A DNA stretch of 64,000 nt from Betaproteobacteria bacterium UKL13-2 (GTDB lineage Bacteria > Pseudomonadota > Gammaproteobacteria > Burkholderiales > Usitatibacteraceae). Made by a program: the position numbers and the translations under genes. Position 1 is the stretch's first letter. Each line of letters opens with the position of its first letter. The notes beneath the pieces are model-generated. The model saw only the letters and a program-made list of their open reading frames with translations, was not told the DNA's origin and made no database searches. Shown here piece by piece: positions 28,563 to 55,269 of the stretch. The DNA is taken from contig CP012157.1 of NCBI GenBank assembly GCA_001602455.1, forward strand, positions 2,289,733 through 2,353,732. The letters are read 5' to 3'.

Positions 28563-28708
28563 GGGAACTTCTAAAAACCGTCACGAGCGGGTGAAGTTGG
28601 CAGTGACGGGTTTGGCAAACACGGGACACGTACCCAGTGTACGGCGACGAATTTGACACACGCGGGAGCTGACAGATTCGCCCGCGCAGTAGGTTTTTAG
28701 AAGTTCCC
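28563..28708. mobile_element. MITE-like element, copy 1 (146 bp, TSD CATA)
   Basis: Ends GGGAACTTCTAAAAAC and GTTTTTAGAAGTTCCC are perfect 16-bp inverted repeats. CATA flanks both sides (28559-28562 and 28709-28712). The interior is non-coding. Related copies are at 52328, 52553 and 55207; this copy is in the opposite orientation to the first of those. Confidence 0.82.
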
Positions 28709-28833
28709 CATAATGCAACGCGTAGGAATGGAGTTGTCAAACAGTCAAACAGTCAAACAGGCTTAACGCCAAGCGCGCAGAATTTCTTCTGCGGTAGACA
28801 AAATTCGGCTTCATGCCGTGAGGTGAACCCAGT

Positions 28834-29215
28834 TCATCCTATATCTGCCGCACCTACATTCCCAATGCCCGCTCGTGTCGCAAGACTCAGCGGGTATTTT
28901 TCATTGTAGGTAACGCCCGTCTTCGGCTCTGCGCGTTTGGGCGGGTCGATTGGCTCGGCGTCCAGATCTTCCACCATCACGGTTTGCGGCCAGATCAGTT
29001 GCACGTAACGCTCTTCTCCGCGTTCGTAGAAACGTTGTAGCGCCCAAAGGAAGTAGTCGACAGCTTGTAAACCTGCGTAATTCTTCGGTTCAGACGCCGT
29101 AATGCTTGCGACTTTGCCGCGAGGTAAATCAAAGTCGCTCGCAAACGCCTTCTCTGCGTCTGCTACCGCATCGCTAAACGCCTGCAAGCGCGGCTTGCTC
29201 CCACGCTTGGCAAAG
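28834..29215 (-). pseudogene. DUF3800-like protein, C-terminal remnant cut by IS3
   Basis: The reading frame enters directly from the IS3 left end (FAKRGSKPRLQAFSDAV) and runs to a stop at 28834. The segment GLQAVDYFLWALQRFYERGE resembles the conserved C-terminal block of DUF3800 proteins, with an acidic QLIWPQTVMVEDLD after it. About the last 127 residues remain. The missing N-terminus is not clearly found on the far side of the IS, so sequence was probably lost. Confidence 0.62.
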
Positions 29216-29280
29216 TGAACGGGGCCCGTTTTTCTGGACGGACAAGTTGATGTTACTTTATCAACTTATCAGGAGTCCTC

Positions 29281-29580
29281 ATGAAACGTATCCCCCGTCG
29301 CACATTCACGGCTGAATTCAAAGCTGAAGCCATCAAACTTGTAACTGAACAAAAGCTTACCCATGCCGAGGTCAGCAAAAAGCTCGACATCGGCACGAAA
29401 TCAATACGCACATGGATCGAGCAACAGTCGCGCGGTGAGCTTAAAGCTAGTTTAGGCGCTGATAAACTCACCGCCGACCAACTGCGTATCCGCGAGCTTG
29501 AACGCGAACTCGCTATTGCCAAGATGGAGCGAGACATATTAAAAAAAGCGACGGCATACTTCGCGAAAGAGTCGAAGTGA
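29281..29580 (+). CDS. IS3 OrfA, outer (split) copy
   Basis: A 99-residue OrfA identical to the one in the inner copy: helix-turn-helix RRTFTAEFKAEAIKLV followed by a leucine-zipper-like helix (IRELERELAIAKMERDILKK). Here the downstream OrfB frame is cut by the inserted copy after its first codons, so no transposase fusion can be made from this end. Confidence 0.85.
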   Translation: MKRIPRRTFTAEFKAEAIKLVTEQKLTHAEVSKKLDIGTKSIRTWIEQQSRGELKASLGADKLTADQLRIRELERELAIAKMERDILKKATAYFAKESK

Positions 29581-29667
29581 GGTATGCCATGATCGATAAA
29601 CTTGAACGGGGCCCGTTTTTCTGGACGGACAAGTTGATGTTACTTTATCAACTTATCAGGAGTCCTC

Positions 29668-29967
29668 ATGAAACGTATCCCCCGTCGCACATTCACGGCT
29701 GAATTCAAAGCTGAAGCCATCAAACTTGTAACTGAACAAAAGCTTACCCATGCCGAGGTCAGCAAAAAGCTCGACATCGGCACGAAATCAATACGCACAT
29801 GGATCGAGCAACAGTCGCGCGGTGAGCTTAAAGCTAGTTTAGGCGCTGATAAACTCACCGCCGACCAACTGCGTATCCGCGAGCTTGAACGCGAACTCGC
29901 TATTGCCAAGATGGAGCGAGACATATTAAAAAAAGCGACGGCATACTTCGCGAAAGAGTCGAAGTGA
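29668..29967 (+). CDS. IS3 OrfA, inner complete copy
   Basis: DNA-binding subunit of the element, 99 residues. Near its end lies an A7G run (about 29928-29935) within TTAAAAAAAGCG. A -1 slip there enters the OrfB frame, which is open from that point, so the usual OrfAB transposase can be made by programmed frameshifting. OrfA ends four bases into OrfB. Confidence 0.9.
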   Translation: MKRIPRRTFTAEFKAEAIKLVTEQKLTHAEVSKKLDIGTKSIRTWIEQQSRGELKASLGADKLTADQLRIRELERELAIAKMERDILKKATAYFAKESK

Positions 29968-30848
29968 GGTATGCCATGATCGATAAACTCCGTCACACAC
30001 ACCCTGTGGACAAGCTATGTCAGTTAGTGGATGTCGCCAAAAGCGGCTATCAAGCGTGGCGTCGGGGCAACGTCATTCCTGCCAAGAGGCTTGAAGATAA
30101 AAGGCTACTAGCGGCCATCAAAGCCGCACACGAACGTAGTCGCGGCACTTATGGGCCAGCGAAGATTCGAACTGAATTGGCAAGCCAAGGCATCAGTGCT
30201 GGACTCAACCGAATCAAACGGTTACGCAAACTCAACGGCATCCGCTGCACGCATAAAAAGAAATTCCGTGTCACGACGGATTCAAAGCATCAACTTCCGG
30301 TCGCTGAGAATTTGCTTAATCGTCAATTTAGGCCAACTGCACCGAATCGAGTGTGGGTGGCTGACATCACCTACATTCCGACCGATGAGGGTTGGCTATT
30401 TCTGGCCGCGATCAAGGATTTATATACCTGTGAGATCGTTGGTTGGGCGATGGATAAGCAAATGACCAAGCAGTTAGTCATTGATGCGTTACGCGCGGCG
30501 TATTGGCGCAAGAAGCCAAAAGCAGGTTTGATGCACCATTCAGATCGCGGTAGCCAGTATTGCAGCGCCGCTTACCGCGCCTTACAGGTTAGCTACGGGA
30601 TGACAACGTCAATGAGTCGCCGAGGTAATTGCTGGGATAACGCGCCAATGGAAAGTTTCTTTGGCACACTCAAGACAGAGAGTCTGCATCATTACCGGTT
30701 TGCCACGCGTGAAGAGGCCAGACGGGTTGTGTTTGAATATATTGAGGTCTTCTACAATCAAATCAGACGTCATGCAAAAATCAACAATCAGTCACCAGCT
30801 GATTGTGCAAAGCAATTCAACGAAGCACAAATGCAATTGGCCGCATAA
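29964..30848 (+). CDS. IS3 OrfB transposase, inner complete copy
   Basis: A 294-residue rve-type integrase domain protein. The catalytic triad is in WVADITYIPT, HHSDRGSQY and PMESFFGTLK, correctly spaced (D-D-35-E type). The N-terminal HTH_21-like region (SRGTYGPAKIRTEL) is present. The nominal start is GTG at 29964, but production as an OrfAB fusion is likelier. Confidence 0.92.
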   Translation: MRYAMIDKLRHTHPVDKLCQLVDVAKSGYQAWRRGNVIPAKRLEDKRLLAAIKAAHERSRGTYGPAKIRTELASQGISAGLNRIKRLRKLNGIRCTHKKKFRVTTDSKHQLPVAENLLNRQFRPTAPNRVWVADITYIPTDEGWLFLAAIKDLYTCEIVGWAMDKQMTKQLVIDALRAAYWRKKPKAGLMHHSDRGSQYCSAAYRALQVSYGMTTSMSRRGNCWDNAPMESFFGTLKTESLHHYRFATREEARRVVFEYIEVFYNQIRRHAKINNQSPADCAKQFNEAQMQLAA

Positions 30849-30887
30849 TCTATCAACTTATCCGTCCACTAAATCGGATCCCGCTCA

Positions 30888-31749
30888 ACTCCGTCACACA
30901 CACCCTGTGGACAAGCTATGTCAGTTAGTGGATGTCGCCAAAAGCGGCTATCAAGCGTGGCGTCGGGGCAACGTCATTCCTGCCAAGAGGCTTGAAGATA
31001 AAAGGCTACTAGCGGCCATCAAAGCCGCACACGAACGTAGTCGCGGCACTTATGGGCCAGCGAAGATTCGAACTGAATTGGCAAGCCAAGGCATCAGTGC
31101 TGGACTCAACCGAATCAAACGGTTACGCAAACTCAACGGCATCCGCTGCACGCATAAAAAGAAATTCCGTGTCACGACGGATTCAAAGCATCAACTTCCG
31201 GTCGCTGAGAATTTGCTTAATCGTCAATTTAGGCCAACTGCACCGAATCGAGTGTGGGTGGCTGACATCACCTACATTCCGACCGATGAGGGTTGGCTAT
31301 TTCTGGCCGCGATCAAGGATTTATATACCTGTGAGATCGTTGGTTGGGCGATGGATAAGCAAATGACCAAGCAGTTAGTCATTGATGCGTTACGCGCGGC
31401 GTATTGGCGCAAGAAGCCAAAAGCAGGTTTGATGCACCATTCAGATCGCGGTAGCCAGTATTGCAGCGCCGCTTACCGCGCCTTACAGGTTAGCTACGGG
31501 ATGACAACGTCAATGAGTCGCCGAGGTAATTGCTGGGATAACGCGCCAATGGAAAGTTTCTTTGGCACACTCAAGACAGAGAGTCTGCATCATTACCGGT
31601 TTGCCACGCGTGAAGAGGCCAGACGGGTTGTGTTTGAATATATTGAGGTCTTCTACAATCAAATCAGACGTCATGCAAAAATCAACAATCAGTCACCAGC
31701 TGATTGTGCAAAGCAATTCAACGAAGCACAAATGCAATTGGCCGCATAA
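30888..31749 (+). pseudogene. IS3 OrfB, outer copy, lacking its first codons
   Basis: Same sequence as the inner OrfB from LRHTHPVDKL onward, complete to the stop and with DDE residues, but separated from its OrfA and start by the inserted copy. An open frame continues upstream into the inner copy in the wrong phase of OrfB, which would give a spurious 362-residue product; that is not a real gene. Confidence 0.85.
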
Positions 31750-31788
31750 TCTATCAACTTATCCGTCCACTAAATCGGATCCCGCTCA

Positions 31789-32237
31789 GTTGGGGGGAAG
31801 CCTACTTTGAGGACGGCTCGGAAAAGGTCGGCGGCGTAAATCAAACGCACCAGCGATGATTTCTTCCGATCTTCACCGAGTTTAATAGGGTTGTCGCTGC
31901 CAAACCAATTCTGTCCACCAGATGTGCCATCAGGAGGGGAAAGGCTTACCTAGTAAAAAATCGCAATCCACCCATTTAATCTCCTCACCTTTAGCGCTTG
32001 TTCACAAAAGTGACTAAAAAATGAACGGGCCGCTAGCAGAAGCAACGCAGAATTTTGCTGGCAGTGGCCGAGGATAGCTATTTCAAAGTGCTTATGCCCC
32101 GAATGGAAAGTCGGACGAGAACACTTGCCGCAGACCAAAAATTGCCCCACTGATAGAGGTTGTGTCGTTTCAAAAAATTCAACCAGCTCCGAGGCCAGCT
32201 CGTAAGTACCCGTAAATACGCTTGAAGCAATGGCTTC
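31789..32237 (-). pseudogene. Possible decayed gene with an in-frame TAG
   Basis: A 507-base gap between the IS and the next gene. On the minus strand one frame looks protein-like over about 95 codons (TYELASELVEFFETTQPLSV, then LVCGKCSRPTFHSGHK). It meets a TAG near 31950 and continues in the same frame as SPPDGTSGGQNWFGSDNP up to the IS boundary. No family recognised. It could be the start of the gene whose end is the DUF3800 remnant, but I see no proof. Confidence 0.3.
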
Positions 32238-32295
32238 TCAACTAACAGCCTAGTATGCGAAAGAGTAGTTCCACTAACCACAAGGACCTCACACC

Positions 32296-32838
32296 ATGGT
32301 CACCACTAAAAATCCAACCGTCAAAAACTACCAGCTAACATCGACTGATCGCGCCAGCATTCGAACTGAGCTATTCACGCTGTGGACAAAAGAACTTCCC
32401 GGCACGTCATCAACCACAAATACATACCGATACAACGTGGAAATTTTGGCCGATGGTTCGGCAATCTACCTGTCACGACCAACGCGGCTAAACAAAGGCG
32501 CAGATTTCGTCATCTGCTGCGAAGGGTTCTTGAAATTCAAGAACGGGAATGACAAACCACCAAGGCATGAAGACCTAATCAGTGAAGCGATCTCGCTCAC
32601 GCCTGGTTCCGAGAGCCGCGCTGAACTACTCCATGCCTTAGCATGTATATATCGCTGCGAAGATAGCGCTGTTGTAGTGAGAAGCCTTCAAGCGCTTCAG
32701 AACAATTCTCGGGCTGAGCGGGTACTTTTCATCGCAAAATGGTTTTTTATCGAGCAGGACCTTACATATTGGACACAAAGTGGAAGGCAGATGCTACGTG
32801 ACGAGCTCGAAGCGCGCCTGGGCACTTTCCCGGCGTAG
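32296..32838 (+). CDS. Hypothetical protein beside the restriction-modification operon
   Basis: A 180-residue protein with an ATG preceded by AAGGA at a suitable distance. No family recognised. It begins MVTTKNPTVKNYQLTSTD, has two Cys (CCEGFLKF) near residue 75 and a helical C-terminal half. No signal peptide or membrane segment. It converges with the restriction operon, 129 bases from the endonuclease gene, so it may be part of the same island, but a functional link is not shown. Confidence 0.55.
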   Translation: MVTTKNPTVKNYQLTSTDRASIRTELFTLWTKELPGTSSTTNTYRYNVEILADGSAIYLSRPTRLNKGADFVICCEGFLKFKNGNDKPPRHEDLISEAISLTPGSESRAELLHALACIYRCEDSAVVVRSLQALQNNSRAERVLFIAKWFFIEQDLTYWTQSGRQMLRDELEARLGTFPA

Positions 32839-32967
32839 TGCGGCAGCAGCGCGTAATTTGTGGATGCCTCGTTACCGACCAACTTGTCGGTTCAGCTTCG
32901 AACACAAATGACTAACCCTGGTTACCTCTTGTAGTGTGTAGCGGAACTATGGCGTTAACCAAAAGTA

Positions 32968-33504
32968 CTACGCGGTTGGAAGTCCAAGCCAAGGCAGCGG
33001 TAGCTTGTTGAACACGTAGTGGCAGTTCACGCTATGTATGTACCCCAACACATCGTGGTATTCCTTTGCTTTGAACCAATCATTGAGGACGTAGACGTAC
33101 TCAACCTTTAAGCCGATGTTTGCAACCAGTTTTAGGTATTGCTTCCGCTTGAAGTCGCAAGTTTGCAATTTTTCATCGACCGAGCCCGCTACTTGTTGGT
33201 ATTTGACTTCGATGATAAACAAAGTCTCCCTAACAATCACTAAGAGTGCGTCGTCAGGGAGCAACTTCTTAGAGATCAGCTTTGTCCAATCGATTCCATG
33301 CTCAGCAAGGTACTTGTAGAACGAGTGCTTCTTGAAGCACCTTGCAACGAGTGCGCCCTTGAAATAAACACCATCTCCGGTTTTTCCTAGAATCGGCTTG
33401 ATTTCGTAGCCCGGAACATTACGCAGCAGGGATTGAAAATCAACATCTCGCTCAAACGTTAAGCCAGTAGCAGTGCTTCCTCCGCCCACGCCTCCAAGTC
33501 TCAT
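32968..33504 (-). CDS. Predicted type II restriction endonuclease (PD-(D/E)XK)
   Basis: A 178-residue protein, last gene of the three-gene operon. It opens MRLGGVGGGSTATGLTFERD, a Gly-rich N-terminus with a conserved FE, and carries an Asp in LPDDALLVIV followed by LFIIEVKYQQ, the D...ExK catalytic core of the PD-(D/E)XK fold. It is shorter than DpnII or MboI (about 280 residues), so it may be a different GATC-type nuclease or another specificity. Its start overlaps the second methylase stop as ATGA, giving translational coupling so the nuclease is made last. Confidence 0.75.
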   Translation of the reverse strand: MRLGGVGGGSTATGLTFERDVDFQSLLRNVPGYEIKPILGKTGDGVYFKGALVARCFKKHSFYKYLAEHGIDWTKLISKKLLPDDALLVIVRETLFIIEVKYQQVAGSVDEKLQTCDFKRKQYLKLVANIGLKVEYVYVLNDWFKAKEYHDVLGYIHSVNCHYVFNKLPLPWLGLPTA

Positions 33505-34403
33505 GCTTCCTCCGCTGACAGCGCACGCTTCAATCTTGATACGGAAAGTTCGATGAACTGAGTCTCTGCTTCTACCCCGCAGAACCTGCGCCCCTGTCGA
33601 ATGGCAGCAACACCAGTGGTGCTACTACCCGAAAATGGATCGAAAACAAATGCTCCGGGTAGAGTCGCAGCGCGGATACACCGCTCAACCAAAGCCACCG
33701 GTTTCTGAGTCGGGTGCTTCCCGAACGTTTTTTCATCTCGGCCGGGCGGAAGAAATTTCCAGACCGACTTCATCTGCTTGCCTTCGTTCTCCAACTTCAT
33801 CTCTGCGTAATTAAAGTGGTGCCTGGATTTGGCATTCTTCGCAGCCCACAGAATCGTCTCGGTAGCGTGGGTAAAGTACCGGCATGCGAGGTTAGGTGGA
33901 GGATTTGGTTTCTCCCAAGCGATGTCGTTCAGCAATTTAAGTCCAAGCTGTTGCATCGCAAAGCCCACGGAGTAAATCGCGTGCATTGTTCCCGAAACCC
34001 AAATGGTTCCGTTTGGCTTCAGCAACTTTTGACACCTACCGAGCCATTGGCGGTTGAATTCATGATTAACCTCCGGTCCTTGCGATTTGTCCCAGGCTCC
34101 CTTGTCGACGGCCACCATTCGACCATTTTGGCAAGTAACGCCCCCGTTAGATAGAAAGTACGGAGGGTCGGCGAATATCGTGTCAAAGATGCCCGCCGGA
34201 TGTCTAGCCAGAATCGCGTCCATCACCTCTAAGCAGTTACCTTTGTAAAGGTATACCCCGCGGCTTCTGTCGCAAAAGACTCGCTCATTGGCAGAGGTGA
34301 CAGTTGGCTCTGAAACAAACTCCGCAGCACCGAATTCGAAGCGCTCTGAGTAGTCGTTGGTCGGTAGGTCGCTCGCCACCGGTTTCCTAGCGCGCAGGGT
34401 CAC
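33501..34403 (-). CDS. Beta-class DNA adenine/cytosine-N4 methyltransferase (DpnA-like)
   Basis: A 300-residue methyltransferase in the beta-class order: catalytic motif IV first (FADPPYFLSNGG, about residue 80), SAM-binding motif I last (FDPFSGSSTTGVAA, about residue 262). GKHPTQKPVAL before motif I is the usual lead-in. The start is GTG, overlapping the Dam-like gene's stop. In DpnII/MboI systems a second, beta-class methylase protects single-stranded or hemimethylated GATC; that role is inferred from the pairing. Confidence 0.87.
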   Translation of the reverse strand: MTLRARKPVASDLPTNDYSERFEFGAAEFVSEPTVTSANERVFCDRSRGVYLYKGNCLEVMDAILARHPAGIFDTIFADPPYFLSNGGVTCQNGRMVAVDKGAWDKSQGPEVNHEFNRQWLGRCQKLLKPNGTIWVSGTMHAIYSVGFAMQQLGLKLLNDIAWEKPNPPPNLACRYFTHATETILWAAKNAKSRHHFNYAEMKLENEGKQMKSVWKFLPPGRDEKTFGKHPTQKPVALVERCIRAATLPGAFVFDPFSGSSTTGVAAIRQGRRFCGVEAETQFIELSVSRLKRALSAEEA

Positions 34404-35200
34404 GAGAACACCGCAATCAGCTCCGCCGCTTTGCCACGATTTGCGGCACTGCTTGAGATAAATCTCTGAACACCGAATGCCTCGATGACAGCTCGTGCGT
34501 AGGCGGCCCTCGTGAACTCAGTATCGTGGTTGGAAATTACAACAGGAACACCCCGCTCACTTAGTTCAGCGGCTAGCGTTGCGAGTTCTCTCTGTTCTGA
34601 GACGCCGAAACCTTCAGCCGTGTAGTCTGAAAAGTTGGAGGTTGCAGACAACGGGACGTATGGCGGGTCGCAATAGACCACATCTCCTAGCGTCGCACTG
34701 CGCATGGTGCTGCGAAAATCTGCGTGCACGAAATCCGCACGCTGGCTCTTCGAGTTAAATGCGATTAACTCTGCCTCCGGAAATCCCGGCGAGTCGTACC
34801 TTCCGAAGGGCACATTGAATTTACCTTTTGAGTTGTACCGACACAGGCCATTGAAACAATGCCGATTGAGATAGACAAAAAGTGCCGATCTGCGCGAGCC
34901 AGGCGGGCAGTCGTTGAACTCTTGTCGCAACTCGTAAAAGGCGCCCGCTTCATTGTTCTGCGCCGAAAACAGTTGCTTTGCATACTCAATAAATTCGTTT
35001 CCGTCCCGTTTGACCGCGCTGAACAAATCAATAACATCTCTATTCGAGTCTCCCAACAAGTACGAATCAAACTCCGTATTCATGAAGACTGCGCCGGAGC
35101 CTACGAAAGGTTCCACAAGTCGCGAACCTGATGGGAGCGCCGTCCGCACCCTCTCAATGATTTTGAACTTGCTTCCAGCCCACTTTAGAAATGGCTTCAT
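34400..35200 (-). CDS. Dam/DpnM-like DNA adenine methyltransferase
   Basis: A 266-residue alpha-class N6-adenine methylase. It starts at ATG 35200, with AAGGA eight bases upstream, giving MKPFLKWAGSKFKII as in Dam and DpnM; an upstream in-frame start is less likely. Motif I region VEPFVGSGAVF (about residue 35), NRHCFNGLCRYN, and motif IV VYCDPPYVPL (about residue 170). Dam-family members of this type methylate GATC; the target here is inferred. First gene of the restriction operon. Confidence 0.9.
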   Translation of the reverse strand: MKPFLKWAGSKFKIIERVRTALPSGSRLVEPFVGSGAVFMNTEFDSYLLGDSNRDVIDLFSAVKRDGNEFIEYAKQLFSAQNNEAGAFYELRQEFNDCPPGSRRSALFVYLNRHCFNGLCRYNSKGKFNVPFGRYDSPGFPEAELIAFNSKSQRADFVHADFRSTMRSATLGDVVYCDPPYVPLSATSNFSDYTAEGFGVSEQRELATLAAELSERGVPVVISNHDTEFTRAAYARAVIEAFGVQRFISSSAANRGKAAELIAVFS

Positions 35201-35241
35201 CAGATTCCTTGCCGAAAATCGATTTGGTAATTTAGCGATAA

Positions 35242-35261
35242 TACTGTATATAAATACATAA
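35242..35261. promoter_or_regulatory. LexA-box-like sequence upstream of the restriction-modification operon
   Basis: TACTGTATATAAATACATAA lies 42-61 bases upstream of the Dam-like start and matches the enterobacterial LexA consensus at 17 of 20 positions; the CTG half is perfect and the CAG half is CAT. It could also be an AT-rich promoter with chance symmetry. Confidence 0.35.
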
Positions 35262-35519
35262 TCCAAGCGTGTCGCTGAGTTTGCATTTCATCTAGGGAAT
35301 TGGGTGAACTGAATATCGGAAGCGTTCCAAACTTCTCGCGTGCAACCAGTGGCTTGCGTTGGGGGCTGGCTGTAGGGAGTATCTGACGGGGTCATGGCTA
35401 ACGGATGGAGGCGTTACGGCGTTTGTTCTACAGCTGGTTTACTCGCTCGGTGCACTTTACAGAAGTTAGCTAATCCAGCAACCATCCTAAAGAGCAGGAT
35501 ATAAGGACGGTTTCAAATA
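35262..35519. other. Gene-free stretch, nothing recognised
   Basis: Between the restriction operon and the IS30 remnant. No convincing reading frame, hairpin or repeat was seen. Confidence 0.4.
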
Positions 35520-35563
35520 AATAGTGCAACACAATCTTGTGAAGTCTACAAAGGAGTGTTGAG

Positions 35564-35867: not shown

Positions 35868-35894
35868 GATGGTGGTGATCGTGGTCTTGCTTAG

Positions 35895-36562: not shown

Positions 36563-36597
36563 GAGAGGAAGACAATCAAGATAATTTTCTGGAAAAC

Positions 36598-37066
36598 TCC
36601 TTTATTGGCGGGCATTTTCAAGCATTTTTGCTCGGAACGGCAAGCTGGAGGCGGACTTCTGAAAAAAGCACAATGCTATTGGTCTGGCAACTAAATATGG
36701 AAAACCATTTCAGCCACCCCCGTTCCCGCCAACAACCACAAGGGTTGCGCCGGCCGGGAACCCAATTTTATTTAACGCGGTAGATTCCGATCTTAGGCTC
36801 CCGCCTTCGCGGGAGCGGGGTCTTCTTAATTATTCATATTTTATTGCCGGATCAATAAAAACCCCGAGAGTTTCTGCCCCGCCAACAACCACAAGGGTTG
36901 CGCCGGGCGGGGACCTAAGTTCAGTGCGCGCATGCCACGCAAAATTGGGCTTCCGCCCGGCGCAACCCTTGTGGTTGTACGCGGGAGCGGGGGTATTTTT
37001 ATTGGGGGTACTTTTATCGAGGGATTTTTCTCATTCATATTTAGTTGCCGAATCAATAAATACTCA
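36598..37066. repeat. Gene-free stretch with intergenic repeats
   Basis: Contains CAAGCATTTTTGCTCGGAAC (36621), shared with 26837, then several ACAACCACAAGGGTTGCGCC blocks (36733, 36887 and inverted near 36957) and a CTCCCGCCTTCGCGGGAG hairpin (36799). These are the same modules seen at 12.4, 43.1-43.6 and 55.4-55.9 kb. No gene. Confidence 0.65.
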
Positions 37067-37069
37067 GTC

Positions 37070-39304: not shown

Positions 39305-39325
39305 GAATCGGCATTCCGGTTACGT

Positions 39326-47002: not shown

Positions 47003-47058
47003 CGCCAAATTTTGTGGTCGCCTGATACTTGCTGATCTTGCCCTCTTAATCTTGCCAC

Positions 47059-49533
47059 CTACTGCGTACGCTGGCTCTCGTCTTCCGTCGCCGGAGGCTC
47101 CGGCATATCGGTCCAGTAGCGTTGACTTCGCGCACGGAACGATTCCACCGACGGCTTACCCTTCGCATCGACGGCGAATTTCAAGGTGAGCGCACCTTCC
47201 CAGTCAGTGCGACGGATCGGAATGCCTCGCGCCACATAGCGCGCCGCCACGTCGGGATGCGGATGACGGAAACGATTACGGTAGCCCACCGGCAACACCG
47301 CAAACGTCGGCTTAACCGCATCCAGAAGCGCCTCGGTTGAAGATGTTTTGCTGCCGTGGTGCGGTACGACCAGGACATCCGATTTCAACTCATCCCCTGC
47401 ACGCGCCACCAATTCCGCCTCGACCATCTTTTCGATATCCGCGGTCATCAGCACGGTGCCACCCGGCGCGGTAATTTTGATCACGCAACCCATATTGTTT
47501 GTTTTGCGCGTTTCCTCATACGCATTCGATGTTGGGTGCAGCACGTCGAACTCCACGCCATCCCAGCGCCAGCCGTCACCGACCTCGCAACGCATCACTT
47601 CGCGCGCATTTGCCAGATAGTCGCGATCTTTGGGTACCGACGTCAGCACCCAACCGGGGCTACGCGCATCGATCACCGAGCGCGCCCCGCCAGCGTGATC
47701 TTCGTCGTCGTGCGTGATGACAAGCGCATCGAGTTTGCGAACCCCCTCGCCGCGCAGGTATGGAACAACGATGCGATTACCAGAATCGGCATCGGGATTC
47801 CATTTTGGCCCAGTGTCATAGACCAGCGTATGCGTTGCGGTACGAACCACCGTCGCGAGCCCCTGCCCCACATCCAGCACCGTCAACCACAACTCGCCCG
47901 GCTTCGGCGCGGGTGGCAGCACAAAAAACATGGGCAGCATCGCCACCAGACCAGCCGAGCGCAACGGCAAGCCACGCGGCATGAGCAAAATCACCACCCC
48001 CAGCATGGCCATTGCCACCGCCCATGCGGGCGGCGTATGTGACTGCCAGACCGCATCGGGTAAGGCGGCCATCCACCCCAATACGTCATAACACCCGCTC
48101 ATCACCATATGCGATAACTGAAGCGGATAACTCACCAACTCTAACGGCAGAGCCGCACCGAAAAGCGTGAGCGGCACAACGACCCAACTCACAATCGGAA
48201 TCGCAAATGCGTTCGCGAGTGGCGAGACGATGGAGACCTCTTGGAATAACAGCAAGGTCAACGGAAGCAGCCCAAGCGTCACGGCCACCTGCGTCATGAT
48301 GGCGGCGCGAATAACCCCCATCTGACCGGTTCGATTTGCGGTGACATAGAAAATCATCGCAACCGCACCGAACGATAACCAGAAGCCTGGTGCCAGCACG
48401 CACCACGGGTCGAGCATCACCACTGCTAATAAAGCGGCCGCGAGAATACGCGAACCCGATATGCCACGGCCAATGAGCAAGCCCACTGCAATCACCAAGA
48501 GCATAAAAAAGGTACGCTGCGTGGGCACGGAGAACCCGGCAATGAGCGAATACGCGAGTGCGGTTGCCGCCCCCACCAGTGCGGCGAATCGCTGTGCCGG
48601 AAAGCGCGAGACCAGTGGTGGCAGACGCCCCCAAATACGGAATGCCAGCCAATACATCAATGCCGCCACCATCGTGATATGGAGCCCCGAGATCGACATC
48701 AAGTGCCCAGTACCGGTGCGCCAAAAAGTCTTCCACTGCGCCGCCGGGATGGCGTTTTGCTCACCGATGGCGAGTGCGACCAACACACCAACGTAAGGCT
48801 GACTGCCTAATGCCGCCAACATGCGCTCTCGAATCGCCATGCGTGCCTGATCGATCTTGGCCATCATGCCGCCGCCGATGCCAGTGTGTTTTGTGTTTTC
48901 ACCTTTTGGACGAACGTAACCGGTCGCACGGATATTACGTTCGAGCGCCCAGGCTTCAAAATCGAAACCATGTGGATTCGCGCTCCCATGTGGTCGACGC
49001 AGCCGAACCGTGAGCGTCCACCGCTCGCCCGGTGCCAAGACTGGCGGCGGCGTGGCCTCTTCTGCCTTGCGTCCCGGCTCGGCATACCAAGTCAGGCTGA
49101 TGTTGGGCGGAATCCGCGCATCGGTCGTGGCAACACGCTCAACGTCGAACTGAAAGCGCGTACCACGCTCGGTCACGGTAGGAAGCGATGCGATGGTGCC
49201 GACCAAACTGACGTCACGCCCTTCCCACTCACGCGGAAGCTCGTCGGCCATGCGGATGTCGGCACGATGCAAGGCGTATCCCGTTCCCAGCGCAGCCCCC
49301 GCCACAAACCATGCCGAACCGATTGCCAGCCGCACGGTCAATGAAGGGTAGGTGCCGGTCCGACCGGGTGCAGGGGATCGCGTTGCATACTGAGCAAGCA
49401 TCAGGGCAATGGCGGCAAATATCAGTGCAGTCAGCACCAGCAGCAGCGCCCAGAGCGCAGACGCCGAGGCAATTTGGCTGCGAGACTGTAAATAGAGCGT
49501 ACCGACAACCAGCCCGAGGACGAATAGGCGCAC
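47059..49533 (-). CDS. comEC: ComEC/Rec2 DNA-uptake channel
   Basis: An 824-residue inner-membrane protein for passage of single-stranded DNA in natural transformation. Order: N-terminal membrane helices, a DUF4131 OB-like domain (residues about 40-200), the Competence membrane domain with RTGTGHLMSISGLHI (about 270-285) and about ten helices, then a metallo-beta-lactamase domain with LDVGQGLATVV and THDDEDHAGG. Full length, so competence is at least possible; other com genes are not in view. The stop lies 57 bases from the transglutaminase gene, which converges on it. Confidence 0.95.
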   Translation of the reverse strand: MRLFVLGLVVGTLYLQSRSQIASASALWALLLVLTALIFAAIALMLAQYATRSPAPGRTGTYPSLTVRLAIGSAWFVAGAALGTGYALHRADIRMADELPREWEGRDVSLVGTIASLPTVTERGTRFQFDVERVATTDARIPPNISLTWYAEPGRKAEEATPPPVLAPGERWTLTVRLRRPHGSANPHGFDFEAWALERNIRATGYVRPKGENTKHTGIGGGMMAKIDQARMAIRERMLAALGSQPYVGVLVALAIGEQNAIPAAQWKTFWRTGTGHLMSISGLHITMVAALMYWLAFRIWGRLPPLVSRFPAQRFAALVGAATALAYSLIAGFSVPTQRTFFMLLVIAVGLLIGRGISGSRILAAALLAVVMLDPWCVLAPGFWLSFGAVAMIFYVTANRTGQMGVIRAAIMTQVAVTLGLLPLTLLLFQEVSIVSPLANAFAIPIVSWVVVPLTLFGAALPLELVSYPLQLSHMVMSGCYDVLGWMAALPDAVWQSHTPPAWAVAMAMLGVVILLMPRGLPLRSAGLVAMLPMFFVLPPAPKPGELWLTVLDVGQGLATVVRTATHTLVYDTGPKWNPDADSGNRIVVPYLRGEGVRKLDALVITHDDEDHAGGARSVIDARSPGWVLTSVPKDRDYLANAREVMRCEVGDGWRWDGVEFDVLHPTSNAYEETRKTNNMGCVIKITAPGGTVLMTADIEKMVEAELVARAGDELKSDVLVVPHHGSKTSSTEALLDAVKPTFAVLPVGYRNRFRHPHPDVAARYVARGIPIRRTDWEGALTLKFAVDAKGKPSVESFRARSQRYWTDMPEPPATEDESQRTQ

Positions 49534-49644
49534 AGTGATAGCAGGAATATTAGTGTTATTGTCTCAATGCGCCGTGGCACTGCGACCCCGGCTCTGCTAA
49601 CGCGCTTGATCGCGGATTTGAATACAACAACACAATAATCCTGA

Positions 49645-50190
49645 ATGAAACAACTACTTCGAGACCGGCTACCGAAGCCGGCGGTGATTCTTGAAAATCG
49701 CTACCTCACCTGGCTCAAGCCTTGGCTGGGGCACCCACGCCTTTGGCATATGCATCGTGGCAGCGTTTCCCTCGGGATCGCGATTGGCGCGGTCACAGGG
49801 CTAATTCCCGGCCCGATCCAAATACTGATGGCAATTCTGATTGCGATCCCGCTGCGCGCCAATGTACTCGCTGCGGTTGCAGGCACCTTTGTCACCAACC
49901 CGCTGACCTTTATCCCGTTGTATATGCTGGCGTTCTCAATGGGAACGCTGGTCACCGGTGAAAGCATATCGGCGTTAGCCCCACCCAATTTGTCCGTGCC
50001 TTGGTCGGCACCGTGGGAAATAATACCGATCATGTGGGACTGGCTGGTCTCACTTGGCCCCTCGCTCGTCGTTGGTCTCGGCATTCTGGCCGCCCTACTC
50101 GCGAGTATTGGATATTTCGGTACCATGGCGGTCTGGCGCCTGATCGTCACGCGCGCTTGGCGCACACGTCACACGCGCAAGCGCTGGTAA
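49645..50190 (+). CDS. DUF2062 membrane protein
   Basis: A 181-residue protein with two or three hydrophobic segments (about residues 40-75, 80-105 and 130-155). HRGSVSLGIAIGAVTGLIPG and TFVTNPLTFIPLYMLA are the conserved DUF2062 blocks. Function unknown. It is divergent from comEC and 18 bases upstream of the glycosylase gene; a comEC-DUF2062 neighbourhood is common in betaproteobacteria. Confidence 0.9.
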   Translation: MKQLLRDRLPKPAVILENRYLTWLKPWLGHPRLWHMHRGSVSLGIAIGAVTGLIPGPIQILMAILIAIPLRANVLAAVAGTFVTNPLTFIPLYMLAFSMGTLVTGESISALAPPNLSVPWSAPWEIIPIMWDWLVSLGPSLVVGLGILAALLASIGYFGTMAVWRLIVTRAWRTRHTRKRW

Positions 50191-50208
50191 ACCGTTGAGA
50201 GCAAACCG

Positions 50209-50826
50209 ATGACACCCGAATACTGGGGCGAAGCCACCACGCATTTGTCCAAACGCTGCAAGGTCATGCGCGGACTGATCAAATCCTATCCCGAAGCGAA
50301 ATTGCGCACCAGAGGCAAGGCCTTCGCAACACTTGCCCGCGCCATTGTGGGGCAACAGATTTCGGTGAAGGCCGCACAGTCGGTATGGGATCGCGTCGTC
50401 GCGGCGGCAGGTGACACCACCCCTGTGCGCTTGCTTGCAATGTCGGTTGATGAAATGCGGGCGTGCGGATTGTCGGGCAGCAAGGTCATCTACTTAAAAG
50501 ACCTAGCGCGGCACTTTGACGAAAAACTGGTGAATCCGCGCCGCTGGCCGCGCATGACCGATGACCAAATCATCGAAGACTTGGTGCGCGTCAAAGGCAT
50601 CGGTCGCTGGAGTGCCGAGATGTTCCTGATCTTTTACCTGATGCGCCCGAACGTATTTCCGGTAGATGACATCGGACTCATCCGTGCCATTGAACGGCAT
50701 TTCCATGACGGTGACCGTCTGACCAAAACTGAGGTCGTGGCGTATGCCGAACGATGGGCGCCGTGGAATACCGTGGCGACGTGGTACCTGTGGCGGTCGT
50801 TGGATCCGATCCCGGTCGAGTACTAG
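50209..50826 (+). CDS. alkA: DNA-3-methyladenine glycosylase, AlkA-type HhH-GPD
   Basis: A 205-residue base-excision repair glycosylase. The helix-hairpin-helix is VRVKGIGRWSAEMF and the catalytic Asp lies in PVDDIGLIRA. GQQISVKAAQSVW is typical of the family. It removes alkylated bases such as 3-methyladenine. The ATL-like gene for O6-alkylguanine recognition follows 20 bases after the stop, so the two form an alkylation-repair pair. Confidence 0.92.
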   Translation: MTPEYWGEATTHLSKRCKVMRGLIKSYPEAKLRTRGKAFATLARAIVGQQISVKAAQSVWDRVVAAAGDTTPVRLLAMSVDEMRACGLSGSKVIYLKDLARHFDEKLVNPRRWPRMTDDQIIEDLVRVKGIGRWSAEMFLIFYLMRPNVFPVDDIGLIRAIERHFHDGDRLTKTEVVAYAERWAPWNTVATWYLWRSLDPIPVEY

Positions 50827-50846
50827 GCTTCGGCACCACGCGAGCG

Positions 50847-51178
50847 ATGTTGGACACGCCGACCCTCTACCAACTGGTGCGTCGGATACCAAAAGGCGAG
50901 GTCGCCACTTACGGGCAACTGGCAAAACTTATCGGCAAACCGCGCCACGCACGCCACGTCGGCAACGCGTTGGCGAATACCCCGGCGAGCGTAAAGATTC
51001 CGTGGCACCGCGTTGTGAATGCACAGGGGCGTATCAGCTTGCGGCGTACCAACTGGCAAAACGGCTCGGTTATTTGCAGCGGATTCTGCTTGAGGCTGAG
51101 GGGGTGGTGTTTGATGAAAGCGGAAAAATTCGGCTGCGTGACTATCAGTGGAAGCCGAAAACCTCAGGCGAGAAATAG
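50847..51178 (+). pseudogene. Alkyltransferase-like (ATL) protein with a frameshift
   Basis: A small MGMT-family protein: MLDTPTLYQLVRRIPKGEVATYG, written here in part, then GKPRHARHVGNAL and the active-site block IPWHRVVNAQGRIS. Trp replaces the alkyl-acceptor Cys of the usual PCHR motif, so it is an ATL protein that marks O6-alkylguanine for other repair. Just after GRIS the frame breaks at about 51040: the expected continuation YLQRILLEAEGVVFDESGK is in the -1 frame and runs to 51178. One missing base would explain it, either a true mutation or a sequencing error. Confidence 0.75.
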
Positions 51179-51511
51179 GGTCTTCATCGCTGCGGTCACG
51201 CGCTTCTGATCATTGGTCCCAAGCACGCCCACTGTTCGCAGTACCAAACGCTGGTCTAGCGTGAATAGCTTGAAGCGGACTGCACACTCGACATTCAGCC
51301 CAGCGCTCTTCAGGTCTTTGATTGACACATCAAGTGGCCAAGTCGCATCCGTGGCACTCGTAACCATCGACAGGACAAGATGCTCCGCACTTCGATGGAA
51401 GCCTTCCGCGCTACTCAGCACGACAGCGGGGCGACGCTTGGTGGCCGCCCGATCGGTAAACGGGAACGGCACAACGAGAACATCGAAACGATTAAAGATC
51501 GCGGAAGGCAT
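51164..51511 (-). CDS. mazF: MazF/PemK-type endoribonuclease toxin
   Basis: A 115-residue toxin: FDVLVVPFPFTDRAATKRRP and AVVLSS form the first strands, with the conserved Arg in TKRRPAVVLS, and later SAGLNVECAVRFKLFTLDQ. Members cut mRNA at short motifs. The start overlaps the 3' end of mazE by 20 bases, giving the normal antitoxin-first order. Its 3' end overlaps the ATL-like frame by 15 bases on the opposite strand. Confidence 0.88.
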   Translation of the reverse strand: MPSAIFNRFDVLVVPFPFTDRAATKRRPAVVLSSAEGFHRSAEHLVLSMVTSATDATWPLDVSIKDLKSAGLNVECAVRFKLFTLDQRLVLRTVGVLGTNDQKRVTAAMKTLFLA

Positions 51512-51719
51512 CGTTATCTGCCGCGCTATCCCACTCGGTCAGCGTTTTCTCGACAGCAGCGAGGTATGCCAAATCCGGGGTGGTAACTCGCTTCAGTTTC
51601 ACCTCGCCGCGCTCAATGAGGTATTGCACCGCGTCGCCTTGGCGTACGCCCAAGAACTCCCGCACTTCCTGTGGAATCGTGGCTTGATACTTGGTAGTCA
51701 CTTTTGAGATTGCAGACAC
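51492..51719 (-). CDS. mazE: AbrB/MazE-type antitoxin
   Basis: A 75-residue swapped-hairpin antitoxin: VSAISKVTTKYQATIPQEVR, then FLGVRQGDAVQYLIE. I choose GTG at 51719 because GGAG lies seven bases upstream; a TTG at 51764 in the same frame overlaps the operator. The acidic C-terminal tail (LTEWDSAADNDAFRDL) would bind MazF. Confidence 0.85.
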   Translation of the reverse strand: MSAISKVTTKYQATIPQEVREFLGVRQGDAVQYLIERGEVKLKRVTTPDLAYLAAVEKTLTEWDSAADNDAFRDL

Positions 51720-51763
51720 GATGGGCTCCACAGCAGAATCGTTTTGGTCGATAGGATGGTACA

Positions 51764-51776
51764 ACCGTAATACGGT
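51764..51776. promoter_or_regulatory. Palindromic operator upstream of mazEF
   Basis: ACCGTA-A-TACGGT is a perfect inverted repeat with a 1-base centre, 45 bases upstream of the mazE start. Position fits autorepression by MazE/MazEF. Confidence 0.6.
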
Positions 51777-52327
51777 ATGTCGATACTACGCACCGCTTAG
51801 GGTTGTGTCAAGCTGATCTTGGCGCAACTTGTGCTGACGCCAAAAGACTCTCGCCCCGGCTCAGTTACCCAACTGCGCCGGGGCCAAGTTAATTACGCCG
51901 ATGTGAAAATGCACCTCGGGTTCCGGCCTGCGCACTCAACTGTCCGGAACGTTTGAAGCATTGGTATTTAGTGGTCTTCGGTGCGGTTTACAGCGATGAT
52001 CCGTTAATGCGCAACCGACCGCAACCACCCACTGTGTCATTCCGACCGGACCCCGGACTTAATCCGCAGGTAGCGGAGGAATCTGCTTTTACGGTTTTAA
52101 CAGCAGATCCCTCGACTTCGCTCGGGATATCAGGGCTCTTTTAAGCGACGTGCAAGGTTTGAGTGTCAACCTCTCCAACTTGACTTAAAAAACAAAAAAC
52201 AACGGTGATTTATGATCAATCCGCATAAAAGTTCCCGACAGTAGTGTGCTTGTGCCGGGAAGACGTCCTTAACCTTGTCCCATGAGGGGCGGGTCTTTTC
52301 TATTGTCGAAAGCGCATTGAGTAAACA
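51777..52327. repeat. Gene-free stretch with a family C palindrome
   Basis: No gene. The family C palindrome is at 51849-51885 (TCGCCCCGGCTCAGTTACCC, then GCGCCGGGGCC). GTCATTCCGACCGGACCCCG and GAGGAATCTGC at about 52028-52086 belong to the repeat phrases seen at 18.5-19.4 kb. Confidence 0.6.
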
Positions 52328-52472
52328 GGGAACTTCTAAAAATCTACTGCGCGGGCGAATCTGTCAGTTCCCGAGTTGGTCAAATTCGTCGCCGTACACT
52401 GGGTACGTGTCCCGCGTTTGCCAACCCGTCACTGCCAACTTCACCCGCTCGTGACGGTTTTTAGAAGTTCCC
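52328..52472. mobile_element. MITE-like element, copy 2 (145 bp, TSD AACA)
   Basis: Ends GGGAACTTCTAAAAA and TTTTTAGAAGTTCCC are perfect 15-bp inverted repeats, flanked by AACA at 52324-52327 and 52473-52476. The interior closely matches the reverse complement of the copy at 28563. Confidence 0.85.
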
Positions 52473-52552
52473 AACAGCAAAACTCTCGAACCGGCGGGCG
52501 TTTCCAAGCATAAATGCTTGTAGCTGCCCGTGGTTGCTGGGGTTTTGCAATT

Positions 52553-52692
52553 GGGACGGGCTACTTCTATAAACCTGCTACGTGGGCGAATTTCGCGCCT
52601 GCGGTGCTCGCCGTACACTGGGTACGTGTCCCGTGTTTGCCAAACCCGTCGGCACGAACTTCACCCGCTCGCGACGGTTTCGAGAAGTTCCC
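52553..52692. mobile_element. MITE-like element, copy 3 (140 bp, TSD AATT)
   Basis: A more diverged copy with degenerate ends (GGGACGGGCTACTTCT and CGAGAAGTTCCC) and the same core (CGCCGTACACTGGGTACGTG). AATT flanks both sides (52549-52552 and 52693-52696). Same orientation as copy 2. Confidence 0.72.
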
Positions 52693-52778
52693 AATTCTGC
52701 GGTCGACAACGCTCACTTCTGGGCTGGTCAGCTAAATGGTGTCTGACCCCCATGGCACTATTTTTTGTTATCGTGGCA

Positions 52779-53435
52779 CTATTTTTTTTTATCGTAAAAT
52801 CTTTGGATATTATAACCAAGACGACTGGACATTTCAAAGTATGATTGATTTTCCTTCTCACCTAAAAGACGGTATATTTCACTTCTATGTTGACTAAATC
52901 GCAAATCAGAGCTGTTCAAGTTGAATACTTCGATACTATGTACCCAGGAATTGGTAATTTCATCTGCTCTTCCCAATTGATAAAGGCATATTTCGCCTAA
53001 AATACCAGATGGTTTTTTAGTTTTATAAACATTGATTTTCTTTAGTTCTTCCTCTTTTAAATCAATATTTAAGGCTAGTTCACCTCTCAAAAACTGAGCG
53101 CGTAATCCATGACCAATCAAAGCTTCTGGAAACTCTACTTCTTGAGGATTAACATCTTGATGACCAATAATACTCCAGGTACCAGATTCTAGACAATCTG
53201 AACCTAGAAAAATACCTGGAATTAAAATTTCTGAACGATTTATGACTGGTTTCAGGGCAGTAGATTTATAAATTTCTACTAGAAGAGAACCATTAAAAAA
53301 ATATAATGGAGAATCAGGTGGTAGCAACTTAGGACGTACACACTGCTTTTTTATATCAAGCATTATACGCCCACACATATACTCATCAGTGCTGAGTTTA
53401 AAAGTAAAAATGTCGCCAGTTTGAAATTTAACCAT
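52779..53435 (-). CDS. Immunity-protein-like gene (possibly Imm26)
   Basis: A 218-residue protein that is much more AT-rich than the core genes around it. The start MVKFQTGDIFTFKLSTDEYM resembles the beginning of Imm26-type immunity proteins; the rest is unremarkable, with no signal or membrane segment. Two copies of TGGCACTATTTTTT lie beside its stop. With the next three AT-rich frames it forms a short foreign segment, as left by polymorphic-toxin loci. No toxin gene is present. Family assignment is tentative. Confidence 0.6.
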   Translation of the reverse strand: MVKFQTGDIFTFKLSTDEYMCGRIMLDIKKQCVRPKLLPPDSPLYFFNGSLLVEIYKSTALKPVINRSEILIPGIFLGSDCLESGTWSIIGHQDVNPQEVEFPEALIGHGLRAQFLRGELALNIDLKEEELKKINVYKTKKPSGILGEICLYQLGRADEITNSWVHSIEVFNLNSSDLRFSQHRSEIYRLLGEKENQSYFEMSSRLGYNIQRFYDKKK

Positions 53436-53659
53436 TGGGAATTTTAGATAAAGGGGTTATGACATTTACTAGATCATGGATCACCTGCAACACAAGGCGC
53501 TGGGCCAAACCCTGCAAGGTCGGGTGTTCCAGAGCGTGCACGCCGCTTTTGGCCGGGTTTTAGGGAGCCACTTAAGGGCATATCCGGTCGCACAGACGTC
53601 TGCGCGAATATAACATATGCCGCTAGCCCCCGTGCAATATGCGCTAAGCATTGGTGTAC

Positions 53660-53766
53660 TCAACACCGAGATCGAAACGGCAAGAAGAAAGGCGAAGGCA
53701 ATCGCAAGAATGGTAATAAGTATTTAAGTTGGGCGTTTGTCGAAGCCGTGCACTTTGCGGTATGGC
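53660..53766 (+). pseudogene. IS110-family transposase, C-terminal remnant
   Basis: The 436-base gap 53436-53871 has no intact gene. One plus-strand frame reads NGKKKGEGNRKNGNKYLSWA followed by FVEAVHFAV, the conserved C-terminal block of IS110/IS1111 transposases. It lacks a start and the catalytic domain and decays at its end. The part from 53460 to 53600 may be further debris; nothing else recognised. Confidence 0.68.
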
Positions 53767-53871
53767 ACCAAAGGGGAGCTGCACAAAATGACACGAAGTG
53801 TCGCGAGGGAAATAAATACGGAGATCACCGTACATGCCAATCATCCGGGAAGCGACACCTAGTGAATTGAA

Positions 53872-54171
53872 CTAATATTCATCAACTTTAACATCTTGCA
53901 TTTCAAGATTATAAACCAGCTTATCAAGCCAAACATATGCCTCATTATCTGAATTTTCATCTAACACTTGATTGGCCGCGTGATTTACCAAACTCAATGG
54001 CTCACGGGGTTGAAAATTCCGCTCTTTGATAGCGATAGATATTTTTTGCCATTTTTCTTGATATTCATTTTTGCTTAATATGGCAGCTCTTGCTTTTTGA
54101 ATAGCATTACTATAATGTTCATAATTAAAAAACTCCCTCAGAAAACTCTCAGCCAACTGAAATTCTTTCAT
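53872..54171 (-). CDS. Small hypothetical protein, AT-rich island
   Basis: A 99-residue acidic, helical protein with GGAGG upstream of the ATG. No family recognised by name; size, AT-rich composition and the sequence start MKEFQLAESFLREFFNYE resemble small contact-dependent-inhibition immunity proteins. Same strand as its AT-rich neighbours, 105 bases from the next one. Confidence 0.55.
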   Translation of the reverse strand: MKEFQLAESFLREFFNYEHYSNAIQKARAAILSKNEYQEKWQKISIAIKERNFQPREPLSLVNHAANQVLDENSDNEAYVWLDKLVYNLEMQDVKVDEY

Positions 54172-54276
54172 TTTATTTTTTCCTCCGTTTTACCAATGCA
54201 TTACAAGCTAAAAAACGCTTATTAGCCAGAATTAAACTATTAAACGAGTGTCAAACTCAAACTAATTGCGACCTCA

Positions 54277-54753
54277 TTAGCCGATACAACTTGAATAGGG
54301 TATCCAAACATAACCAGGTTTAAAAATTTGAAAACCTGCTGGACGATTTATCATCTCCCAAATTGACTCCGCCAACACCAGTCCTTCAAAGCTGGAAGGT
54401 TGATCAGTAATTATTGTATCCTCCAACAATTCGCTAAATGTTCTAAATACATCCACTTCCACACCTAACAAAGCATAGCGAAAATCCGGCGCATTCTGTA
54501 AACTTCCATAAATTAACTTGCCTATTTCCCTTATTTGTCTTGTATTCTCGTCACCTTTAACTAAATTTTCATCCATCCCTACAGGAACAACCATACACCA
54601 CCAATTGCCATCACAATCTTCCATCAGTTCCGGTACAGTCGTGATTTTTTTGCCATCTCCAAGCGTCCAAGATAGCTTTTGAAAATATGCTAAAAAAAGC
54701 TCGGACTGAGTTTGAGTTCCACATTCAGCCGATAAACTAAAAAGCCATGCCAT
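54277..54753 (-). CDS. Hypothetical protein, AT-rich island
   Basis: A 158-residue soluble protein rich in aromatic and acidic residues (DCDGNWWCMVVPVGMDENL, PGYVWIPYSS). No family recognised. Cytosolic, no signal peptide. Its composition, size and place between immunity-like genes suggest an orphan immunity gene; this is a guess from context. Confidence 0.55.
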   Translation of the reverse strand: MAWLFSLSAECGTQTQSELFLAYFQKLSWTLGDGKKITTVPELMEDCDGNWWCMVVPVGMDENLVKGDENTRQIREIGKLIYGSLQNAPDFRYALLGVEVDVFRTFSELLEDTIITDQPSSFEGLVLAESIWEMINRPAGFQIFKPGYVWIPYSSCIG

Positions 54754-54792
54754 TATTCACCCCTGTTTTATTTGTCAACCTATTTTTTATGC

Positions 54793-54984
54793 TCACTCTT
54801 TCTTCTCTTCTTGTTTCTGTGGTTCTTGAGCTTTTGTCCAGTTTGGTTGTGTCGCAGCTAGTTCTGTTTGAAATACTTCCAGTGACATATTTTGTTCGGC
54901 TACCGTAATGCTTACATGATTTCCTCCATCATAATTTGCTGCCAGCTTACCATTGATATTATTTTCATCAATCTCCCAAACCAA
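54793..54984 (-). pseudogene. C-terminal fragment of an unknown gene, AT-rich island
   Basis: A short frame of 63 residues (MVWEIDENNINGKLAANYDG ... PQKQEEKKE) that opens without a clear start; codons just upstream (SSSWPHLL) also look like protein until a TGA at about 55011. It may be the tail of a larger effector or toxin gene whose front was lost. Too short to assign. Confidence 0.4.
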
Positions 54985-55060
54985 TAAATGGGGCCAGCTA
55001 GATGATTTTCAGACACCATTTAAAAGGTAGAGCAGTGATCTCCAACTCGTCAAAATCCTC

Positions 55061-55132
55061 ATGGCCCGCCTTCCCCGCTACGTGATCCCCGGCCAGCCGC
55101 AGTACATCATCGAGCGCGGCAACAATCGTCAG
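55061..55132 (+). pseudogene. RAYT (REP-associated tyrosine transposase) N-terminal remnant
   Basis: ATG at 55061 opens MARLPRYVIPGQPQYIIERG then NNRQ, the hallmark N-terminus of Y1_Tnp REP-associated transposases. Homology stops after about 24 codons. The remnant lies 75 bases from MITE copy 4 and before a hairpin-rich tandem repeat. Confidence 0.75.
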
Positions 55133-55206
55133 TTTTTTATTAGCATGGGATTGGTTTGTCACCATTCTTCTTCCTTCAGGTTAACCATCACACCGTCGAA
55201 CGCAAG

Positions 55207-55269
55207 GGGAACTTCTATAAACCTGCCGCGTGGGCGAATTTCGCGCCTGCGGTGCTTTCGACAAGTCCC
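55207..55269. mobile_element. MITE-like element, copy 4 (63-bp internal-deletion form, TSD CAAG)
   Basis: GGGAACTTCTATAAACCTGC at the left and GACAAGTCCC at the right, with the core deleted. CAAG flanks both sides (55203-55206 and 55270-55273). It sits in the gap after the RAYT remnant. Confidence 0.7.

Follow-up and report, generated by a model that had tools for sequence, protein, structure and literature searches.

Most MITEs examined in Betaproteobacteria bacterium UKL13-2 lie at a nearly fixed distance from a genus-specific palindromic repeat and share their ends with an IS5-family insertion sequence

What moves a short, gene-less element around a bacterial genome, and what decides where it lands? 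The question is raised by a stretch of 64,000 nucleotides of Betaproteobacteria bacterium UKL13-2 (contig CP012157.1, positions 2,289,733 to 2,353,732; hereafter the window), in which a preliminary description made from the sequence had recognised four copies of a family resembling miniature inverted-repeat transposable elements (MITEs), each flanked by its own perfect 4-bp target duplication. We conclude, at a probability of roughly 0.8, that all four are non-autonomous MITEs which a transposase of the IS5 family mobilises in trans, with the target set relative to a palindromic repeat. The preliminary description had overlooked this target: judged from the sequences, the insertion sites are not arbitrary and appear to be set by the repeat, which lies 40–41 bp away. 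The source genome is one contig of 3,387,087 bases, and genome-wide counts of elements and of palindromes rest on samples and listed matches. The window copies, their flanks and the adjoining palindromes, the latter with covariance-model scores, are as follows.

28485–28557: palindromic repeat adjoining copy 1, 67.4 bits
28559–28562: target duplication CATA, left of MITE copy 1
28563–28708, plus strand: MITE copy 1, 146 bp, perfect ends, target duplication CATA; palindrome centre 41 bp from the left edge
28709–28712: target duplication CATA, right of MITE copy 1
52328–52472, minus strand: MITE copy 2, 145 bp, target duplication AACA; left of the palindrome at 52477, whose centre is 40 bp from the right edge
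52477–52549: palindromic repeat between copies 2 and 3, 70.3 bits; its empty paralogue is locus L160 (near 1323.6 kb)
52553–52692, minus strand: MITE copy 3, 140 bp, target duplication AATT, 6-bp insertion in the left end; palindrome centre 40 bp from the left edge
55207–55269, minus strand: MITE copy 4, 63 bp, internal deletion, target duplication CAAG; palindrome centre 40 bp from the right edge
55274–55346: palindromic repeat adjoining copy 4, 47.7 bits

The palindrome emerged when the flanks of 30 MITE copies were read through, which revealed an inverted repeat whose sequence has diverged but whose distance is fixed; the covariance model was built from 23 flanks, after five clearly non-palindromic ones had been removed from the 28 aligned first. 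In a set of 65 elements (64 from fetched stretches of the source genome, and window copy 4), a palindrome stands beside 57. An exact 4-bp flanking repeat is present in 37 of the 65 and absent from 28, where shuffled pairing expects 2.0; 35 of these 37 have a palindrome, centred 39 bp (one element), 40 bp (19) or 41 bp (15) from the element edge, so that 34 of 35 lie at 40 or 41 bp. An evenly spaced sample of the genome (20 stretches of 20 kb, 400 kb in all) gave the same picture: 14 of 18 element regions had a palindrome centre within 60 bp of the edge (0.108 expected), and 12 of 20 palindromes were occupied by a MITE, two of them on both sides. When the 34 elements with palindromes among or close to the model seeds were excluded, 22 of the 30 held-out elements had a palindrome, at 38–41 bp, against a background of 45 in 5000 random points with a palindrome within 140 bp. 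In a wider but biased set, 62 of 73 full-length elements adjoin a palindrome, 39 palindromes having an element on one side and 12 an element on each, and either end of the element may face the palindrome (32 vs 26). The target duplications are T-rich when read outward (TTTT in 7 of 34), and the palindrome stays intact after insertion and can be flanked on both sides. Flank folding energy was tried as a target marker and discarded, because values of −25 kcal/mol or lower on one side, found in 36 of 65 rows vs 18% of random 76-mers, gave no separation.

The four window copies, their coordinates and their duplications proved to be as first described, and so did their shared ends, with variants at the left end of copy 3 and the right end of copy 4. 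The exact 10-mers GGGAACTTCT or AGAAGTTCCC occur six times in the window, every time at an end of one of the four copies; the variant start of copy 3 is GGGACGGGCTACTTCT, six bases of which are missing from its paralogue L004, and the variant right end of copy 4 is GACAAGTCCC. The smallest copy had been called an internal deletion, and copy 4 indeed reads so by eye: its first ~50 bp match copy 3, after which it jumps to the opposite end. The segment with copies 2 and 3 has a second occurrence near 3372 kb, and the paralogues there are therefore not additional independent insertions; the claim of independent insertion holds for the window copies, each with its own duplication, but does not extend to those paralogues.

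Empty sites support the proposed insertion with a 4-bp stagger. Within the source genome, L160 has the left flank and the palindrome of copies 2 and 3, no element, and a single AACA; on the far side of the palindrome AATT follows, after which the sequences diverge, so the right-hand comparison ends there. Between species, a site without an element in the source genome (L163) and in sister genome G009 (L198) is occupied in sister genome G007 (L122), where the element lies 40 bp from the palindrome centre between GTTA on the left and ATTA on the right, a three-of-four match. The empty counterpart has one GTTA in L163 and GATA in G009, and the G007 element carries a partial extra copy of its own head. 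For window copy 1, no flank conserved across the insertion was found in sister genomes; in the comparison of L172 (5.7 kb) with L133, the element is absent in the sister, and the flank is too diverged for the tetranucleotide to be counted. The comparisons L160/L120, L029/L118 and L018/L124 gave nothing clear. The preliminary description had named copies without flanking duplications as an observation that would tell against it; the 28 of 65 elements without an exact one, some of them through visibly rearranged or decayed flanks, are not decisive.

The 15-bp end, whose search across the genome had been proposed, gave 259 matches with up to two mismatches (128 forward and 131 reverse) vs 11 for the reversed pattern (8 and 3), which suggests about 130 elements; the 18 element regions per 400 kb of the evenly spaced sample extrapolate to about 152. 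A BLAST search with copy 1 returned 79 matches in the genome, with at least 51 distinct element places on the matching strand among the best 40 of 159 candidate stretches. Among 100 genomes, copy 1 matched eight, namely the source genome, six of the 12 other genus members and one genome of another family, the last through one weak match of 27 bp. The core motif, scanned against a collection, turned up 27 stretches, of which 23 are in two Rhodocyclaceae assemblies, two are in a Betaproteobacteria assembly, and two elsewhere carry the core motif only. Four viral contigs and contigs of Aminicenantes and Verrucomicrobia gave core matches that were rejected as the core motif alone with no paired ends, and copy 1 was unmatched in plasmid and phage collections. 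The 65 elements range from 63 to 146 bp, with main sizes of 122 bp (14 elements), 134 bp (30) and 146 bp (15). Two separate 12-bp blocks, one per arm, are present or absent among aligned MITEs, and the arm types are mostly linked: the commonest full combinations occur in 25 and 14 of 64 elements, the remainder being mixed or unclassified. The block variation and the mixed arm types look as if copies had swapped arms. Copy 1 folds from end to end as one long hairpin (−40.7 kcal/mol vs −20.0 for shuffles).

The terminal inverted repeats, the short size without a gene, and the target duplications with empty sites are those of MITEs, and the non-autonomous reading gains further support from sister genomes, where an insertion sequence of the IS5 family has the same ends. 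The transposase domain PF01609 has 51 matches in the source genome; among the 30 loci fetched, a MITE-like end directly adjoins the transposase gene only in five (L047–L051), and at L068 a whole MITE lies some 700 bp from the transposase. These five copies have one recognised end each, and their proteins are identical, 291 residues long, and start at position 38 of the family model; the transposase scores 203.6 bits against the IS5-family model NF033581 (cut-off 140) and also matches PF01609 and PF05598, which marks it as IS5-type. Both ends are found in three sister genomes: in L098 (G007; 1307 bp, protein 94% identical), in L100 (1238 bp, ends GGGAACTTCTCGAAA and GGGAACTTCTAATAA, TTTT on each side, protein 61% identical), and, in altered form, in L099, where the transposase match is limited to residues 57–291. 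What survives in the source genome is the five copies, whose transposase is shortened. A sample of 399 genomes from the order yielded close relatives of the protein (E up to 1e-110) in three, the source genome among them, and all three belong to this genus. The transposase-bearing copies L047–L051 and L099 have a palindrome centre at 40 or 41 bp (6/6 scored), and thus insert repeatedly at palindromic repeats, as REP-recognising insertion sequences do (REP, repetitive extragenic palindromic sequence), with five of the six in the same genome and at two kinds of palindrome. L098 and the MITE L016 of the source genome, which is beside a palindrome, occupy the same place, where one and the same gene ends. 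The sequences themselves show that the ends match, and they show the 4-bp duplications, the empty sites and, in MITEs and transposase-bearing copies alike, the offset of 40 or 41 bp.

The claim that no transposase with these ends lies in the window stands with a qualification: the sole listed PF01609 match (~24054–24824) is of a 526-residue type, two fetched copies of which have no MITE-like end within 1.5 kb, and the window copy of that type was covered by end scans only. Of the L047–L051 copies, four lie 5–6.5 kb apart at 134–152 kb and the fifth at 2507 kb of the source genome; the sequence neighbouring the shortened gene is also repeated in the copies compared, and in L048 it has an open reading frame (ORF) of 331 residues rich in repeats.

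Several observations weigh against moving of the MITEs by this transposase with the palindrome as target. The search for a transposase-bearing element with these ends succeeded as to both ends in sister genomes, but in none of the 13 genus genomes was an intact gene shown together with the two ends: the gene in the source genome begins at model position 38, L099 has residues 57–291 only, and L100 is in two pieces. By eye, MITE and insertion sequence (L098 and L100) share only about 17 bp per end, with no likeness in the interior; an internal-deletion origin is not required of all MITEs. The 4-bp target motif of the IS5 subgroup is YTAR. This motif is absent from the T-rich duplications here; membership of the IS5 family is still allowed, because other subgroups differ. 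Four of nine scored transposase loci (L098, L100, L101 and L104) have no palindrome at threshold, the contig of L098 starting 3 bp before the element. Finally, no palindrome was found beside eight of the 65 elements, two of which have an exact duplication, nor beside 11 of the 73 full-length elements of the wider set, only some of which have lost or rearranged flanks.

The palindrome is about 66 bp long, and its consensus consists of AAACTCnCCnATnGGCGGGCGTTTTCAGGCATTT, a short loop and the complementary arm, with symmetric ends AAAC/GTTT. Scanned with a weight matrix, 400 kb contained 19 to 20 sites, and the reversed sequence one. All 13 genus genomes contain it, with at least 67 to at least 150 matches each among the best 150 candidates scored per genome, and no palindrome was found at E 1e-5 in 15 further genomes of the family outside the genus. 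Folded as DNA, the repeat at 52477–52549 reaches −18.4 kcal/mol vs −10.3 for shuffles. In L048 and L051, two or three palindromes stand in a row, about 84–92 bp apart, with no MITE between them. The palindrome does not look like a mobile element with its own duplication, as no direct-repeat peak appears around 58 unoccupied palindromes. REPs that go with REP-associated tyrosine transposases (RAYTs) have a 20–40 bp palindrome tagged at one end with GTAG or CGTC (PMC3733652). A tagged REP was rejected, the symmetric ~66-bp consensus having no such tag, and so was a RAYT-linked REP, since the genome has six Y1 matches and a palindrome lies within the fetched stretch at one of the six loci.

Could a host protein, nucleoid-associated or regulatory, be the target signal by sitting on the palindrome, with the transposase merely drawn there? 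We regard this as unlikely, though it deserves serious weight. Conserved RNA structure is unsupported in the alignment (covariation 0.175 vs 0.184 shuffled), and a symmetric consensus in place of compensating changes is what a protein site would be expected to show; the palindrome is also genus-specific and present in genomes without MITE matches. However, 73% of the alignment cells pair, which is compatible with a hairpin or cruciform. We give lower credence, as distinctly doubtful, to the palindrome being a transcription terminator whose T tract or paused transcription draws the element. The AAA before and TTT after the stem and the T-rich targets would suit a terminator, and by eye the L163 palindrome lies closely behind an apparent gene end; there is, however, no clear enrichment between convergent genes, with five palindromes in convergent, 13 in tandem and two in divergent contexts, against 41, 125 and 43 of intergenic regions generally.

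Chance, survival bias and joint copying are disfavoured. If MITE and palindrome were one composite unit, moved or copied jointly, the near-constant spacing of paired copies would follow, and certain places do repeat a single segment (window 52.3 kb with L004, and L018 with L023). This is nevertheless very improbable, given that the palindromes are diverse (68% mean column identity among the 23 aligned) and the MITEs are far more alike, that each MITE has its own duplication, that eight of the 20 sampled palindromes have no MITE, and that the six genus genomes without a MITE match (G001–G005 and G010) still have at least 67–128 palindrome matches. Random insertion followed by survival in harmless intergenic places where palindromes happen to be is scarcely credible: 22 of 26 palindromes do fall outside the ORFs that a home-made caller predicts, and MITEs tend to be intergenic (PMC10969869), but survival cannot set a distance to within a base or two (40–41 bp in 34 of 35) or yield 14 palindrome neighbours where chance gives 0.108.

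The simplest explanation is that the transposition machinery chooses its target by reference to the palindrome. In this model, an IS5-family transposase whose insertion sequence has the same ends would move the MITEs in trans; the transposase or a partner protein would recognise the palindrome, as a bound site or an extruded hairpin, and measure from it; and the complex would cut with a 4-bp stagger in T-rich DNA about 37–41 bp from the palindrome centre, on either side. Because the palindrome is left intact, a second element could then land on its opposite side. We infer that the present transposase, or an ancestor, is responsible and that the palindrome is read by this enzyme or by a partner protein. 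If so, the system would be a case in nature, repeated at many sites, of a small DDE transposase inserting at an almost constant distance from a sequence that is recognised, would help to ask how simple transposases read their targets, and would bear on how a gene-less element reaches more than 100 places without breaking genes; the palindromic family would be a safe harbour that remains usable after insertion, unlike REPs, which are broken by their insertion sequences. We put forward only tentatively, at somewhat less than even odds, that a minimal IS5-type system gauges a distance of about four helical turns, starting at the centre of a palindrome peculiar to the genus, and inserts there on both sides without damage, a Tn7-like rule of insertion at a distance in a transposon of one of the smallest kinds, which also serves many gene-less passengers.

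Tn7, through TnsD at attTn7, recognises one sequence and inserts at a fixed distance, leaving it unharmed. The likeness is one of outline, with no homology claimed, for here there are many degenerate sites, two-sided insertion and one small transposase. Targeting of attTn7 is mentioned in PMC10969869, which also describes bacterial MITEs (Correia elements, Chunjie and MITEAba12, the last the subject of PMC6382973) as short and gene-less, with inverted-repeat ends and target duplications, and mostly intergenic; its insertion-site account contains no palindrome-offset targeting. Palindromic-repeat targeting by insertion sequences is already known, including an IS5-family case. The sections of PMC1525189 on REP recognisers list ISPsy8, ISPa11, ISPpu9/10, ISRm22, ISRm19, IS1397, ISKpn1 and IS621, which, like the elements here, insert time and again at members of a family of short palindromic repeats. 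Type 1 recognisers insert into the REP and break it (PMC1525189), whereas the palindrome here stays whole, with elements inserted on one side of it or on both, 40–41 bp from the centre. In Neisseria meningitidis, ISNm1106, of the IS5 family, lies near or adjacent to REPs in a type 2 association (4/7 and 7/14 copies); those sections state no fixed offset for it and no MITE (PMC1525189), and the palindrome family here is different and genus-specific. Fixed-offset, two-sided palindrome targeting therefore looks like a new variant: in open-licence literature, we found no description of such MITE insertion, of this MITE or of this palindrome.

The window also holds two palindromic repeats without a neighbouring copy of the MITE family described above (MITE-1).

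26806–26878: palindromic repeat, covariance model 34.2 bits
36591–36663: palindromic repeat, covariance model 30.0 bits; a second small repeat type begins at 36677

This second small repeat family, with ends TATTGRTCYGGCAAYTAAATATGG, has four matches in the window where none is expected (36677–36857, 37035–37058 and 55359–55382) and occurs in L120, L133 and L078. In sister loci it lies inside a MITE-1 end at a TA, and looks like a nested MITE with a TA target. Directly after the second-family end at 55359–55382, a tandem array (55392–55930) comprises 5.2 copies of a 104-bp unit with 96% matches. The broken-off start of a reading frame at 55061–55150, MARLPRYVIPGQPQYIIERGNNRQ, resembles the N-terminus of a Y1 (RAYT-like) transposase and is a candidate fragment of one. 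Next to MITE copy 1 lies a gene pair for a RES-domain protein and an Xre/MbcA/ParS-type antitoxin (26937–28100).

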